From positions 2,666,001-2,730,000 of the forward strand of contig NZ_CP151273.1 in the NCBI RefSeq assembly GCF_038237375.1: 64,000 nucleotides of DNA, given 5' to 3'. The stretch is from Alcaligenes sp. SDU_A2 (GTDB lineage: Bacteria > Pseudomonadota > Gammaproteobacteria > Burkholderiales > Burkholderiaceae_B). The notes below the pieces were generated by a model. It was given only the letters and a program-made list of their open reading frames with translations, had not been told where the DNA came from and made no database searches. This document shows, piece after piece, positions 1,657 to 47,900 of the stretch. Each line of letters begins with the position of its first letter. Position 1 is the stretch's first letter. A program made the translations under genes and the position numbers.

Positions 1657-2406
1657 TCATCCTTCTGATTGAAGTTTCTTGGGCAAAATCTCGGTAGGCA
1701 AACTCTCGATGGCCAGCAAGGCCGACATCGGGTCTTCCATCGCCTGCAGCGGTTCAAGGCCATAAGCGTCGTCGATGTGAAAAGGACCCAGCTCCGTACG
1801 GCGCAAGGCCGACAGGTGGGCATAGCATCCCAGTGCGCGACCGATGTCCTGCGCCAGGGTCCGGATATAGGTTCCCTTGCTGCAGCGTACATACAGACGC
1901 GCGAAATGCGGCGTGCATTCCAGCACGTTTAACTCGCGAATCACGACCTGTCGTGCCTCGCGTTCCAGCTCTATGCCCTGACGGGCATATTCATACAGGG
2001 GCTTGCCATCGCGCTTGAGCGCAGAATACATGGGCGGCACCTGCGAAATCGGCCCCCGAAATGCCGGCAGCACCGCTTCCAGCGCATCCGGGCTTACTCC
2101 GGTGAAATCTGTTGCCTGCGCCACGACATTGCCGGTCAGGTCGCCCGAATCGGTTTCGGTGCCGAAGGCCACGGTGGCCTCGTAAGCCTTGTCGGCCTCC
2201 AGCATCGTGGCGGAAATCTTCGTGGCCCGGCCAAAGCAGCAAACCAGCAGCCCAGTGGCAAAAGGGTCCAGCGTTCCGGTATGGCCGGCCTTGCGGGCGT
2301 CCAGGGTACGGCGGGCGCGTTGCAGAGCGTGGTTGCTGGACAGGCCTACAGGCTTGTCCAAAAGCAACACACCATCAATCAACTGCCCGCGTCGTCGCGT
2401 AGCCAT
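1657..2406 (-). CDS. truB: tRNA pseudouridine(55) synthase TruB
   Basis: Converts U55 in the T-loop of tRNAs to pseudouridine. The 249-residue protein carries the family signature HTGTLDPFATG with the catalytic Asp at residue 47, preceded by the LLLDKPVGLSSN strand that opens TruB proteins. The length is near the lower end of the family, which suggests a short C-terminal PUA part. It sits 32 nt after rbfA and 3 nt before typA on the minus strand, the usual rbfA-truB linkage of proteobacteria, so it is probably co-transcribed from the rimP-nusA-infB side. Confidence 0.97.
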   Translation of the reverse strand: MATRRRGQLIDGVLLLDKPVGLSSNHALQRARRTLDARKAGHTGTLDPFATGLLVCCFGRATKISATMLEADKAYEATVAFGTETDSGDLTGNVVAQATDFTGVSPDALEAVLPAFRGPISQVPPMYSALKRDGKPLYEYARQGIELEREARQVVIRELNVLECTPHFARLYVRCSKGTYIRTLAQDIGRALGCYAHLSALRRTELGPFHIDDAYGLEPLQAMEDPMSALLAIESLPTEILPKKLQSEG

Positions 2407-2438
2407 TGTGTATCAGTCCGTGAAAAACAACAGCCGAG

Positions 2439-2855
2439 TCAGGACTGTTCGTCTGGGTCGTCGGCTGGGGAGGCCGAGCCGTTCATTCGTTCGCTGTCGG
2501 CCTGGTTGGCGCTGTCGATCAGCTTGGACAGTGCCATACCGCGTTCCAGTTGCCTGTCGTGATGGAAATGCAGGGTGGGCACCGTATGTATGTGCAGCAG
2601 CTTATAGAGCTGCGAATGCAACCAGCCCGCCTTCTCCGATAGGACAGCCTGAGCCGTCTCGGGTTCGGCACCAAGCACCGAATAATAAATTTTAGCGTGT
2701 GCGTAGTCCGGAGACAACTCCACGCCAGTCAAGGTAATGAGACCAGCGCGGGTCATATCGATCTCGCGCTGGATCAGGACCGCCAGATCCTTCTGGATCT
2801 GGTCGGCCAGGCGCGTATTGCGCCCTGGGTTCGGTTTGGACTTGTGTCTTGCCAT
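2439..2855 (-). CDS. rbfA: 30S ribosome-binding factor A
   Basis: RbfA binds free 30S subunits near the 5' end of 16S rRNA and is needed for late 16S maturation and cold adaptation. The 138-residue protein has the compact KH-like fold signature: an N-terminal helix ([18 protein letters not shown]), the [23 protein letters not shown] strand region (around 38-60) and the [11 protein letters not shown] segment (around 90-100). The C-terminus is an acidic, probably disordered tail of about 25 residues. It starts 3 nt after the infB stop, so translational coupling with infB is likely. Confidence 0.96.
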
Positions 2856-2858
2856 GAA

Positions 2859-5800
2859 TTAAAGCGTCCGGGCGATCTCTTTGATCTCGAAGACCTCGAG
2901 CTGGTCGCCCACCTGGATATCGTTGTTGCCGCGCAGCGTGATACCGCAGTCGAAGCCGGAACGCACTTCCTTGGCGTCGTCCTTGAAACGGCGCAGCGAA
3001 TCCAGATAACCGCTCCAGTGGACAACGTTATTACGCAGCAAGCGAACTTGCGAATCACGACGCACCACGCCTTCGGTAACCATACAACCGGCGATATTGC
3101 CAATCCGCGACACATTATAGACTTCGCGGATTTCGACCATGCCAATGATCTCTTCGCGCTGCTCGGGGGCCAGCATGCCCGACAGAGCCGCCTTGACCTC
3201 GTCGACCGCATCATAAATGATGTTGTAATAACGCAGATCAATACCGTTGGCTTCGGCCAGTTTCTTGGCACTTTGCTCGGCACGCACGTTAAAGCCGATC
3301 ACGACGGCATTGGAAGCAATCGCCAGGTTCACGTCGCTCTCGGAAATGCCACCCACTGCGGCATGCACCACCACCACGCGCACTTCGTCGGTAGAGAGCT
3401 TGACCAGCGACTGCACCAGCGCTTCCTGCGAACCCTGCACGTCGGTCTTGATGATGAGCGACAGCGTCTGCGTGCCTTCGCCCAGGTTGTCGAACATGGA
3501 CTCCAGCTTGGCGGCCTGCTGTCGCGACAGTTTGACGTCGCGGAACTTGCCTTGACGGAACAGGGCGATCTCGCGGGCTTTACGCTCGTCGGCCATCACG
3601 ACCAGTTCGTCCCCTGCGCCGGGCACTTCGGTCAGACCCTGGATTTCAACCGGGATCGAAGGGCCGGCCGAGCTGAGCGACTTGCCGGTTTCGTTCAGCA
3701 TGGCGCGCACCCGACCAAAGGATGCGCCGACCAACACGCTATCGCCACGATTCAAGGTGCCGCTTTGAACCAGGATGGTGGCCACAGGACCGCGGCCCTT
3801 GTCCAGACGTGCTTCAATGACGGTACCCTTGGCAGGCGCATCCACCGGCGCTTTGAGCTCCAGCATTTCGGCCTGCAGCAGCACGTTTTCCAGCAGTTCG
3901 TCGATACCCTGGCCGGTTTTGGCCGACACAGGAATGAAAGGCACATCGCCGCCGTATTCTTCCGGCACGACCTGCTCGGCAACCAGCTCTTGCTTGACGC
4001 GCTCTGGGTTGGCCTCGGGCTTGTCGATTTTGTTGATGGCCACCACCAGCGGCACACCGGCCGCGCGGGCATGGTGAATGGCTTCGCGAGTTTGAGGCAT
4101 CACACCATCATCAGAAGCCACGACCAGGATAACGATGTCCGTTGCCTTCGTACCCCGGGCGCGCATGGCCGTAAAGGCTTCGTGGCCCGGAGTGTCCAGG
4201 AACGTAGCCGTGCCGCGCTCGGTTTTTACGTTGTACGCCCCGATATGCTGCGTAATGCCGCCGGCTTCACCCGAAGCAATCTTGGCGCGGCGAATGTAAT
4301 CCAACAGCGAGGTCTTGCCATGGTCCACGTGGCCCATGACGGTAACCACAGGCGCGCGCGGCTTGAGCTCAGCATCGGTCGCCTCGGCATCGACCAGGAA
4401 GGCTTCCGGATCGTCCAGCTTGGCGGCAATGGCTTTATGGCCCAGCTCTTCCACCAGAATCATGGCGGTTTCCTGATCCAGCACCTGGTTGATGGTGACC
4501 ATCTGACCCAGTTTCATCAAATGCTTGATGACCTCGGCCGCCTTAACAGCCATGCGGTGCGCCAGATCGCTGACGGAGATGGTTTCCGGCACATGAACTT
4601 CGCGTGCGATGAATTCGGCCACCTGCGGCTCGCGACGCTCGGGCTGCGCATTGCGACCACCGCGTCCACCCTTGCCGCGACCGGCCTTGGTGTTGGACTT
4701 CCAGCCTTCGCGGGCACCACCGGCCCCAGCCGATGCAACATCGGCCTTGGAGGGCTGCTTTTTGCGATTGGCATCGCCACCCCAACCGGGCGCGGCGTCG
4801 GTCTTGACGGTCTTGCCAGGTGCCTTGTCGGTCTTGGCACCCTTGACGTCTTTCTTGACCGCGCTCTTTGCGCCCGCCTTGCCGCTACCTTCGCCTTCAG
4901 GCTCAGGAGCACGCAACACTTTGCGCGGACGATTCAGCATTTCACGCAGCGCAGCTGCCTCGGCTTCAGCCGCCTTGCGGGCGCGCTCGCGGTCTTGATC
5001 CTGCTCCACATCGGCAGCAACGGGAGGAATGACGGGGCCACGAGCGGCGCGGCGCTGGCCCACGCCAGACATTTCCCGGGGTTTTCCGGTCGAAGCGGGC
5101 GACTTGGCCCCTTGAGGATGCTGAGGTTTATTCACAGGAGTAGATTGACGAGCTTCTGAAGCAGATTTAGTAGGTACCACTGGCTTCTCTTCGGCCTTGG
5201 CCTGGGTAGATGGAGCCTCGAGCGCTTCGGTCTGGGCCGGCACATGCTCTTCGGATGGCTCCGAAGGCGCGGCAACCTGCTCCTGAGGCTGAGGTTCTGG
5301 TTTGGATTGACTCTCTTGGACGGCGGCTACAGGCTCCACAGGAGCAACAGGTTCCGGCGCTGGAGCAGGAGGAGTCGACTGGACGAGCGGTTCGGCTGGT
5401 GCAGGTTCCGGCTTGACGGCCGGCGGCTCGGGAGCCGGTGCCGCAGCGACGGGCTCGACAACGGGCGCAACCGGCTCGGCGGGCTCTGGTGCCGCCTGGC
5501 TGGCTTGCTCGGCCTGCTCTGCTGCCTGCCTGGCATTTTCCTGGTGCATCGCAGCCGTTGCCTCTGCCACCAGCTCGGACGGGTCACGCTTGACAAACAC
5601 GCGCTTTTTACGTGTTTCCACCTGAATCGTGCGCGAACGCCCGGAGCCGTCGTCCTGACGGATCTCGGATGTCTTGCGGCGGGTCAGGGTGATTTTATTC
5701 CCTTCCTGACTGCCGTGCGAGCGGCGCAACGATTCAAGCAGCTTCGCCTTATCCGAATCGGTGATGGCGTCATCGACCGATTTGAGCTCAATACCTGCGG

Positions 5801-33865: not shown

Positions 33866-33999
33866 TATTACGCTTCACCTATCCGAGTGCTTCACTCGTG
33901 TTGAGATGCAGGAAAACCTTCCGCGACACGGCCACGCCGGTTAGCGGATAGCGGAGCAGAAGGCAACGTGTGACGCCTTATACAAGCCGTATGTTTTCT

Positions 34000-36723: not shown

Positions 36724-36762
36724 AAAAAGCCTGATGCCCTTGTAGGGATCAGGCTTTTTTTT
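36724..36762 (+). terminator. Intrinsic terminator of maeB (first)
   Basis: AAAAAGCCTGATGCCC-type arm pairs with GGGATCAGGCTTTTT around a short TTGTA loop and ends in eight T residues, 52 nt after the maeB stop. Confidence 0.9.
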
Positions 36763-36785
36763 AGGGTTTCCGAAGAATGCCGAGC

Positions 36786-36821
36786 GCCAGTTCACCCAGA
36801 CGATGAGGAGCTGGCTTTTTT
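36786..36821 (+). terminator. Second tandem terminator after maeB
   Basis: GCCAGTTC pairs with GAGCTGGC (one G-U pair) around a 14-nt loop and is followed by six T residues. It stands 24 nt beyond the first terminator and upstream of the structured repeat. Confidence 0.65.
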
Positions 36822-36934
36822 AAGACGCCATTCAAGGCACCGATGAAAGCGACCCGGCGATATGCATTCTTGCCAAACAGAACATGCAGCGAATGGCTGA
36901 TACCTTGTGCAACATACACGGACGCCCCGCATGT

Positions 36935-37258
36935 GGGCCAAGCACTGCGGTGCCGTTCTCGTCAGGCCGCAGCGGGACGGCGGGCGAGTCAGGGCCTTCG
37001 CCGCAGGCGGGATGCTGGGGTGGGAGGCAAGGGGCGTGCTGTTCGAGCAGGGCGCTTGTGATTCGTCCAGTGGACGAATCACCCTGCGAGTTCACGCCCC
37101 GCCCGCCCCGGCATCCCGACCAGGGAATCCGCGCGCAGCGCGGGCGAAGGCCCCAGCCAAGCTGACCCGCTGCGGCCGGCCTGGCGAGAACCCAAGGTTC
37201 TGTCCGCTTGGCCCAAACGGCCCGCCCAATACGAAGGAACCCCCGATATCTCTCGAAG
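36935..37258. repeat. Structured non-coding repeat, copy 1
   Basis: About 324 nt that recurs in the same orientation, diverged but alignable, at 47571-47900. Ends are the inverted repeats GGGCCAAGC (36935-36943) and GCTTGGCCC (37206-37214), with ~45 nt of further homology beyond. Inside, a 16-bp helix pairs 37009-37024 with 37102-37117; GGGGCGTG (37031-37038) pairs with CACGCCCC (37093-37100); CAGG (37048-37051) with CCTG (37083-37086); an 11-bp hairpin spans 37058-37082 with loop AGT. A further hairpin is at 37128-37144. It lies between convergent maeB and the MFS gene. Short open frames cover it on both strands but are not conserved as proteins. No known RNA or mobile family is recognised. 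Confidence 0.8.
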
Positions 37259-37318
37259 AACCTTTTTTTATGCCTTGTCGTTGATCGGCGTGATCGCAAC
37301 CGAACTTCCAAGCGCGTC

Positions 37319-47332: not shown

Positions 47333-47570
47333 GTCCGACCAGTATGGCCGCCAAAAAGTGGGCTTCGCCTATTTTCGGCGACCACCGTCTATTCATGAGC
47401 AGAATGCGGGCGCTAGAAATCACCGTTCAAATCGAGTACCGCTGCCCTGATCGGGACGCATGACCGGACGAGTCCTTAACTCCGGCTGCTGGCTTGTCCG
47501 CCGGACAAGCAGCAAGCACCGCCATCAAACAGAACGACGCCTGCACCCGGCCCGCACGTCCCTCCGTTTA
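47333..47570. other. Intergenic stretch between the GlcG-like gene and repeat copy 2
   Basis: No gene is supported. It contains a perfect 8-bp stem-loop GCTTGTCC-GCC-GGACAAGC at 47492-47510, extended by imperfect GCTGCT/AGCAGC-type arms. The hairpin may be the terminator of the TRAP operon but lacks a U-tract. Confidence 0.45.
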
Positions 47571-47900
47571 GGCCAAGCACATCGGTGCCGTTCTCGCCAG
47601 GCTGGCCGCAGCGGTCCGGCGGGCGAGTCAGGGCCTACGCCGCAGGCGGGATGCCGGGGCGGGAGGCAAGGGGTGTGCTGTTCGAGCAGAATGCTTGTGA
47701 TTCGTCCTGTGGACGAATCACTCTGCGAGTTCACGCCCCGCCCGCCCTGGTATCCTGACCAGGGAACCCGCGCAAAGCGCGGGCGAAGGCCCCAGCCAAG
47801 CCGGCCCGCTGCGGCCAGCCTGGCGAGAACCCGAAGTTCTCTACGCTTGGCCCAAACGGCCTACCCAATACGAAGGAGTCCCCGAATTTACTGGAAGAGT
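47571..47900. repeat. Structured non-coding repeat, copy 2
   Basis: Direct repeat of 36935-37258. Terminal inverted repeats GGCCAAGC (47571-47578) and GCTTGGCC (47845-47852). The 16-bp helix is 47648-47663 with 47741-47756; GGGGTGTG (47670-47677) pairs with CACGCCCC (47732-47739); CAGA (47687-47690) pairs with TCTG (47722-47725), replacing CAGG/CCTG of copy 1; the 11-bp hairpin spans 47697-47721 with loop TGT; a hairpin with loop AAA is at 47767-47783. A 4-nt insertion (CTGG, near 47602) relative to copy 1 breaks every reading frame. It lies between convergent glcG-like and gltA genes, the same context as copy 1. Confidence 0.8.

Follow-up and report, generated by a model that had tools for sequence, protein, structure and literature searches.

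A 16-bp helix noticed earlier in two repeat copies of the window, by which we mean the whole stretch of 64,000 nucleotides of Alcaligenes sp. SDU_A2 DNA analyzed here, was found to be part of a core of about 174 nt with six helices and 56 base pairs. Comparison of aligned members showed that selection on one strand preserves the fold of this core, and that it does so at syntenic loci that have stayed fixed in related species as well. The core probably functions as a structured RNA, with folded single-stranded DNA as the main rival reading. In this genome the core was shown to be the cargo of a MITE-like element, which ends in GGTTCTTCG and duplicates 8 bp of A/T-rich terminator tracts.

Layout of the core and its copies in the window

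The 56-pair structure was drawn from the predicted fold and then counted in alignments. The long hairpin of copy 1 in the predicted fold, consisting of the core and outer arms, spanned 36934..37215 on the + strand, with the core itself at 36982..37155 (+), and the core of copy 2 was located at 47621..47794 (+). Model R1, which was built from 33 cores including both of these, gave them 192.2 bits (E 2.7e-35) and 187.5 bits (E 2.1e-34), respectively. A third, decayed core lay beside copy 2, head to head, at 47426..47580 on the - strand (67.8 bits, E 2.5e-11). The 5' strands of the six helices of copy 1, all on the + strand, were P1 at 36992..37001 (paired with 37144-37153; two-sided change in 7 of 10 pairs), P2 at 37009..37024 (37102-37117; 13 of 16), P3 at 37031..37038 (37093-37100; 7 of 8), P4 at 37047..37051 (37083-37087; 4 of 5), P5 at 37058..37068 (37072-37082; 8 of 11), and P6, the 3' hairpin, at 37129..37134 (37138-37143; 3 of 6). 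Four conserved strands, also on the + strand, were recognised between them: GGAGGCAAG at the P2-P3 junction (37023..37031; GGrnGCAAG in many members), the internal-loop strand CTGTTCGAG (37039..37047; CTGTTyGAG in many members), the internal-loop strand GAGTT opposite CTGTTCGA (37088..37092), and the linker GACCAGGG on the 5' side of P6 (37118..37125).

The preliminary description had claimed that base changes between the two copies preserve pairing. Direct reading of both copies agreed for the 16-bp helix P2 (37009-37024 with 37102-37117 in copy 1, 47648-47663 with 47741-47756 in copy 2), where 5 of the 16 pairs differed and all 16 were standard in each copy. Three of the changes were G-C to G-U and two were U-G to C-G, each of them one-sided and still paired. 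The inner-helix pair 37051/37083 had also been read correctly as a two-sided change from G-C to A-T (CAGG/CCTG to CAGA/TCTG), as had the 11-bp hairpin, identical in both copies with a loop changed from AGT to TGT, and the loop of the 3' hairpin, which was GCA in copy 1 and AAA in copy 2. Thus, the claim stood in the 16-bp and inner helices, but it failed at one pair elsewhere that had not been listed, 36998/37147, which was T-A in copy 1 and A·A in copy 2.

Across the whole 174-nt core, copies 1 and 2 differed at 15 positions, and the changed pairs comprised six kept with a one-sided change, one kept with a two-sided change, and one broken. When the same 15 substitutions were placed randomly, a mean of 4.7 pairs was broken, and one or none was broken in 0.9% of trials, whereas at least one two-sided change arose in 21% of trials (P = 0.21). 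Because of this difference, the preservation of pairs is unlikely to be due to chance, while covariation cannot be claimed from two copies. Taken alone, the two copies are weak evidence; pair preservation is visible in them, strict covariation hardly so. The predicted folds of 301-nt stretches were far more stable than those of dinucleotide shuffles, with z values of -9.6 for copy 1 and -12.8 for copy 2, and the fold of copy 1 (36930-37230) reached -196.3 kcal/mol.

A protein-coding repeat was rejected, as no conserved open frame was found in the core and stops occurred in 34 to 100 of 101 copies in each of the six frames. The idea that related repeats have been mis-annotated as small ORFs gave no literature match for one peptide motif.

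Covariation, fixed loci and distribution

Family-wide pairing was counted in three alignments: A1, with 33 diverse cores aligned by MAFFT blind to structure; A2, with 101 matches from 79 loci of four congeners; and A3, with 55 CM-aligned matches from several families. The model structure had been used in fitting both A2 and A3. In A1, 42 of the 56 pairs showed two-sided change, in 364 cells compared with 109.6±10.0 after shuffling, and the covariation score was 0.549 against 0.187±0.009 for shuffled columns and at most 0.112 for slid partners; the shuffles lose the relatedness among members, while the slid versions keep it. In A3, two-sided change was found in 52 of the 56 pairs, in 994 cells against 317.6±13.6. 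The share of paired cells in A1 was 92.8%, versus 73.0±0.7 shuffled. Selection on folding, as the preliminary description had proposed, was supported by A1, A2, A3 and the fixed loci described below far beyond what two copies could show.

The wobbles also indicated which strand folds, a point that the preliminary description had left open by asking for both strands to be examined. Of the cells in the 101 matches of A2, 5256 were Watson-Crick pairs, 193 were G·U, 18 were A·C, and 127 were of other kinds; the corresponding numbers for its 35 non-redundant members were 1787, 72, 8, and 46. In the structure-blind A1 there were 79 G·T and 23 A·C cells. Read on the window's + strand these wobbles are G·U, and on the other they would be A·C; the folded strand is therefore the + strand, reading GGGCGAGTCAGG..., on which G·U is tolerated and A·C is rare. 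Column identity in A2 was 88% at unpaired and 64% at paired positions, and such stronger conservation of unpaired than of paired columns fits a structure that is recognised and not a plain palindrome. Covarying pairs on one strand and conserved loops, two features expected of a structured RNA, were both present in the core.

The same bias was examined at loci that have stayed in place. After the cores were masked and the flanks compared, 96 of the 101 matches in the four congeners fell into 27 flank-defined groups, each common to two to four species. Two of these groups (16 matches) held at least two matches of one genome and were left out because they were not one-to-one orthologs. Also dropped were five matches that were interrupted or truncated, as well as seven members with a replaced interior; the usable set comprised 24 one-per-genome groups with 69 members. 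With events counted once per group and without a species tree, single-side changes within the 24 groups gave G·U 39 times, A·C 8 times, other breaks 14 times, and undefined states 4 times, while 34 two-sided changes were kept and 3 were broken. At 39 of 61, the G·U share was significantly higher than the 29% that the proportion of transitions in the flank predicts (P = 1.6e-8), and G·U also exceeded A·C (39:8, P = 5.5e-6). When the five damaged matches were kept in, the counts were 58 G·U, 12 A·C, 28 other, and 5 undefined, with 36 two-sided changes kept and 3 broken. Unpaired core columns had changed in 85 of 1486 cases, in comparison with 656 of 2782 in the downstream flank (and a further 674 with gaps). 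From the 39:8 bias together with the conserved unpaired columns, it follows that the loci that stay put are under constraint.

Some orthologs had the same ends and flanks and a wholly different interior from P2 to P5 (L234 versus L254, and L161 versus L218), and the swapped interiors recurred at other loci. We read these swaps as probable non-allelic gene conversion. Pairwise comparison of orthologs gave 231 two-sided kept, 110 one-sided kept, and 79 broken changes. Because a number of the differences between orthologs represent block swaps with other copies, the two-sided changes overstate independent compensation, and gene conversion explains part of their excess over one-sided kept changes. 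Separately, an IS110-family element was observed inside the P5 hairpin of one core (L260, about 2100-3194, in genome G006, at the same place as in L052), with Pfam matches to Transposase_20 and DEDD_Tnp_IS110; the junction letters of L046, at another place, were the same as those of the L260 insertion. In genome G003, three cores with identical E-value lay exactly 45,250 bp apart (contig C1, 3023218, 3068468, and 3113718), which suggests that a large segment was duplicated in tandem or that the spacing is an effect of assembly.

The cores occurred singly or in pairs, most of the pairs being head to head, and those of the four congeners lay mostly between convergent genes. Two cores were present at 22 of the 79 loci in the four congeners, and all 22 pairs, which represent only about eight distinct syntenic loci, were head to head with their 5' ends facing, 127-586 bp apart, and often with low-complexity spacers. 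All ten two-match loci of a second set, which included the own genome and other families, were likewise head to head. Among 35 loci of more distant members, one of them from the own genome, 15 of 20 neighboring pairs had this orientation; the exceptions were four same-direction pairs and one tail-to-tail pair (L334, L338, L348, L349, L355). By crude ORF calls, 48 of the 79 loci lay between convergent genes (33 of the 57 with one core and 15 of the 22 with two), which is a count and not an enrichment. No clear replication-strand bias was seen by eye from the coordinates with an assumed origin.

The distribution of the core was investigated by blastn and by two models, R1 and the broader R2, which was built from 55 matches. 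In 41 genomes, blastn found matches in 10, namely the own genome, 8 of 9 congeners, and one other genus. The genome counts of R1 and R2 include the own genome and are all lower bounds, because the filters were stricter and the number of candidates was capped, and the weakest matches scored about 40-60 bits. R1 detected the core in at least 16 of the 41 relatives, including 9 of the 10 genus genomes (G005 gave no R1 match), with at least 67 matches in the own genome (G000), where every one of the 67 candidates scored was a match. It also matched at least 51 of 121 family genomes, from at least 23 of 43 genera, and at least 6 of 300 order genomes. R2 matched at least 77 of 300 order genomes (at least 41 of 135 genera) and at least 13 of 398 phylum genomes (at least 10 of 213 genera). 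Membership is firm across the family, likely across the order, and tentative across the phylum, and the conserved unpaired letters were recognisable in distant genera. A DNA pattern scan of named genomes returned 56 stretches, all from Alcaligenaceae records, although the pattern had been built from such sequences; the genera were Alcaligenes, Paralcaligenes, Pusillimonas, Allopusillimonas, Candidimonas, and unnamed Alcaligenaceae. The same pattern had no match in viral contigs, and a short-loop variant, CTGTTTGAGCGnAGCGAGTTC, was seen in six viral contigs (L373-L378). In several distant members (L319, L320, L324, L325, L327, and similar ones) a second hairpin, for example CTTTTGGCGAAGCAAAAG, followed the core, and some distant members had a short TGTTTGAGCGnAGCGAGTT form without P5.

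The mobile element in the Alcaligenes sp. SDU_A2 genome

Copy 1 was found within a MITE-like element of 499 bp at 36764..37262 (+), with imperfect terminal inverted repeats GGGTTTCCGAAG and TCTCGAAGAACC. It was flanked by the 8-bp direct repeat TTTTTTTA on the left (36756..36763), in a T-tract after the terminator-like hairpin of the upstream gene, and by the same 8 bp on the right (37263..37270), as a target-site duplication. All nine other genus genomes had the upstream gene with a terminator-like hairpin behind it, and in none of them was a core found within 1.5 kb after the gene, which shows that this insertion is polymorphic.

A 391-bp query around copy 1 gave 90 match rows in the own genome, where the window lies in a single 3.65-Mb contig; many of the rows were partial or inverted at the same places. 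Thirty-eight places were taken as copies, and in 33 of these the match spanned query positions 95-291, which hold most of the core. The general layout was a core with outer arms around it and inverted repeats GGTTCTTCG... at the ends. The terminal pattern GGTTCTTCGnnnnATnnCGrG, with at most one mismatch, had 57 matches in the own genome and none in its backward control, while the nine congeners had 0-2 matches each and 0-3 in the control. Many paired ends had direct repeats of up to 8 bp beside them, and target-site duplications were 8 bp in the clearest cases, such as TTTTTTTA, TTTTTTAT, ATAAAAAA, AATAAAAA, and TTTTTCAT. A direct-repeat score of at least 7 was obtained for 16 of 52 candidate pairs of terminal repeats versus 6.2% of mismatched flanks; some of the 52 pairings are spurious, and several pairs that look real scored lower. 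The paired ends were about 172 to 736 bp apart, the insertion sites were A/T-rich and often terminator-like tracts, and many elements held a second, inverted core that was about 72% identical to the first.

Other copies of the element had arms without a core (L062, L064, L065, L110, L111, L125). These were rejected as empty sites, because their end points vary and lay at short direct repeats in the two inspected, L062 and L064; for the same reason, we read them as deletions of the hairpin. ISL3 was the transposase family tested for a parent insertion sequence, and none was found. Strong ISL3 copies (PF01610) were present in G003, G006, and G012, and the own genome had one weak match. The apparent ISL3 end in G006 (GGCTCTACCCC), the one end that was read, differed from the ends of the element, so that an ISL3 origin is unsupported by it, and isolated GGTTCTTCG-like words near ISL3 copies are candidate ends only.

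The changes private to one copy were counted in 31 of 33 aligned own-genome cores with arms, after two divergent ones were dropped, at pairs whose commonest form was G-C or C-G. These changes, which look neutral, gave G·U 15 times and A·C 16 times; a further 12 broke the pair in other ways, and 7 were two-sided and kept it. All variant cells of the own-genome set together gave 65 G·U against 24 A·C, and since the private changes were unbiased, the strand preference resides in variants shared by several copies, presumably the older ones. Where the same stretch is unpaired, C>T (26 cells) was not above G>A (38 cells), so that the excess of G·U cannot be put down to mutation biased from C to T. 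The copies in the own genome are mostly copies of a mobile element, and, as their private changes have no G·U preference, the signal between the two window copies was probably inherited from the family rather than produced by selection on these copies themselves.

Candidate function and related repeats

On the aligned sequences, we regard it as about an even call that the best explanation, a strand-selected six-helix core acting as RNA and carried in this genome by a MITE, is correct. The core would be transcribed by read-through from a flanking gene, which is supposed because no promoter of its own was detected: in 31 representatives there was no enrichment of sigma-70-like promoters (mean z -0.20 upstream and -0.07 downstream). 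It would then fold at the 3' end of the flanking gene's transcript, and its internal loops (GGrnGCAAG, CTGTTyGAG, GAGTT, and GACmAGGG) could be recognised by a factor that affects the end or the stability of the transcript. The MITE would merely carry the core about, by means of a transposase that was not found in this genome. The missing promoter signal, the tolerance of G·T in folded DNA, and the strand-neutral private changes of the own-genome copies count against this explanation.

RNA and folded single-stranded DNA are indistinguishable from sequence alone, and the latter is the strongest alternative, although the less probable of the two. The fold would matter as a hairpin substrate or end for a DNA-processing enzyme, and old insertions would be tidied by gene conversion. 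Folded-DNA substrates or end structures of this kind are known from attC sites and REP/REPIN hairpins. The high copy number, the mostly head-to-head pairs, and the block swaps resemble mobile hairpin DNA, and G·T wobbles and the absence of a promoter signal fit DNA as well. However, a REP-type Y1 transposase (PF01797) was found in none of the 10 genus genomes, the 96 matches common to several species are not newly moved, and the copy-1 hairpin had no match at blastn sensitivity in 72,556 plasmid and 50,697 phage records, so that carriage by plasmids or phages was rejected as well. These results make it unlikely that the core itself is actively mobile, but they do not argue against past mobility.

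That the core is a mere bidirectional terminator or insulator between convergent genes, for which any strong hairpin would suffice, we consider improbable. The 48 convergent loci, the very stable folds, and the A/T-rich, often terminator-like tracts around own-genome elements would suit such a role, as would the Tail-repeat-Tail bias reported for Pseudomonas repeats in the part covered of one paper (PMC2718517), but a plain terminator needs no unpaired letters that are more conserved than its pairs (88% versus 64%) and recognisable in distant genera. Highly improbable is the reading without any selection, in which template switching in replication (quasi-palindrome correction) symmetrises palindromes and mimics covariation: it agrees with two-sided changes being more numerous than one-sided kept ones between orthologs (231 versus 110) and with arms-only copies that show hairpins being deleted, but it would erase G·U and A·C alike, whereas G·U was about ninefold A·C on one strand and stood at 39:8 within loci, it cannot conserve unpaired letters, and part of the two-sided excess is block conversion from other copies.

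Returning to the RNA explanation, a wider reading can be offered only tentatively, with somewhat less than even confidence. The core would represent a large unnamed class of structured RNA with up to tens of copies per genome in many beta- and some gammaproteobacteria, selected at fixed loci between convergent genes mostly as singles or head-to-head pairs, overlooked as filtered junk, and carried as MITE cargo in at least one genome. Intergenic hairpin repeats with many copies are usually characterised one genome at a time and seen as inert or mobile debris. Here one fold ties repeats of very different sequence together across genera and probably orders, strand-specific selection is measurable at single loci, and neutral-looking mobile copies in this genome can be set beside selected resident copies in related species. 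Whether such repeats serve the cell can thereby be put to a direct test, since the strand and the loops are defined and nature supplies compensated variants.

The core family belongs with the structured intergenic repeats and is not categorically new, and a branch of it may already bear a single-genome name. The parts of the literature covered contained no description of the family in Alcaligenes or of its fold. The following comparisons with named repeats are limited to parts of the cited papers. REP/BIME repeats and their RAYT enzymes (PMC3733652, PMC2817692) are similar in that they are palindromic, intergenic, and often of alternating orientation; however, REPs are 20-40 bp long and most have GTAG/CGTC tags (PMC3733652). 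A REP/RAYT origin was rejected, given a core of 174 nt against a palindrome of 20-40 bp and no Y1 transposase in the genus, whereas PF01797 was present in 13 of the 41 genomes overall, with G010 and G037 carrying it together with R1 matches. The BRE repeat element of betaproteobacteria (PMC3110155), described from Bordetella and Comamonadaceae with 1 to 29 copies per genome, is also mostly intergenic, occurs in betaproteobacteria including Alcaligenaceae, and lies in a region of expressed small RNAs, bprJ1/bprJ2. BRE is about 90 bp and tandem with variable numbers at some loci (PMC3110155), whereas the Alcaligenes core is about 174 nt plus arms with none of 22 close pairs in tandem, a distinction drawn by description only.

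The 92 stem-loop sequence families (PMC2267715), including Bor-1 to Bor-6, Pae-1 to -4, and Ppu families, are similarly high-copy, often intergenic repeats of beta- and gammaproteobacteria with a predicted shared fold; compared by description, they differ in being defined genome by genome, and Alcaligenes is absent from the genome lists in the part covered. The R0-R200 repeats of Pseudomonas fluorescens (PMC2718517), of which R200 has 320 bp and 47 copies in SBW25, are stem-loop repeats too, some of them MITE-like and with the same Tail-repeat-Tail bias, but by description their sizes and inverted-repeat plan are different. With bacterial MITEs (PMC10969869) the own-genome element shares terminal inverted repeats, 8-bp duplications, and many copies; it differs from them in its cargo, a structured core that is genus-wide and under selection.

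No Rfam family reached its gathering score over the cores of the window, and a known family was therefore not assigned to the cores scanned. When copy 1 and ten member loci were scanned permissively, all matches were below gathering; they were microRNA models, a Thr leader, and two Salmonella sRNA models away from the core. Elsewhere in the window, an Rfam sucA RNA motif scored above gathering at 33871-33954 on the - strand.
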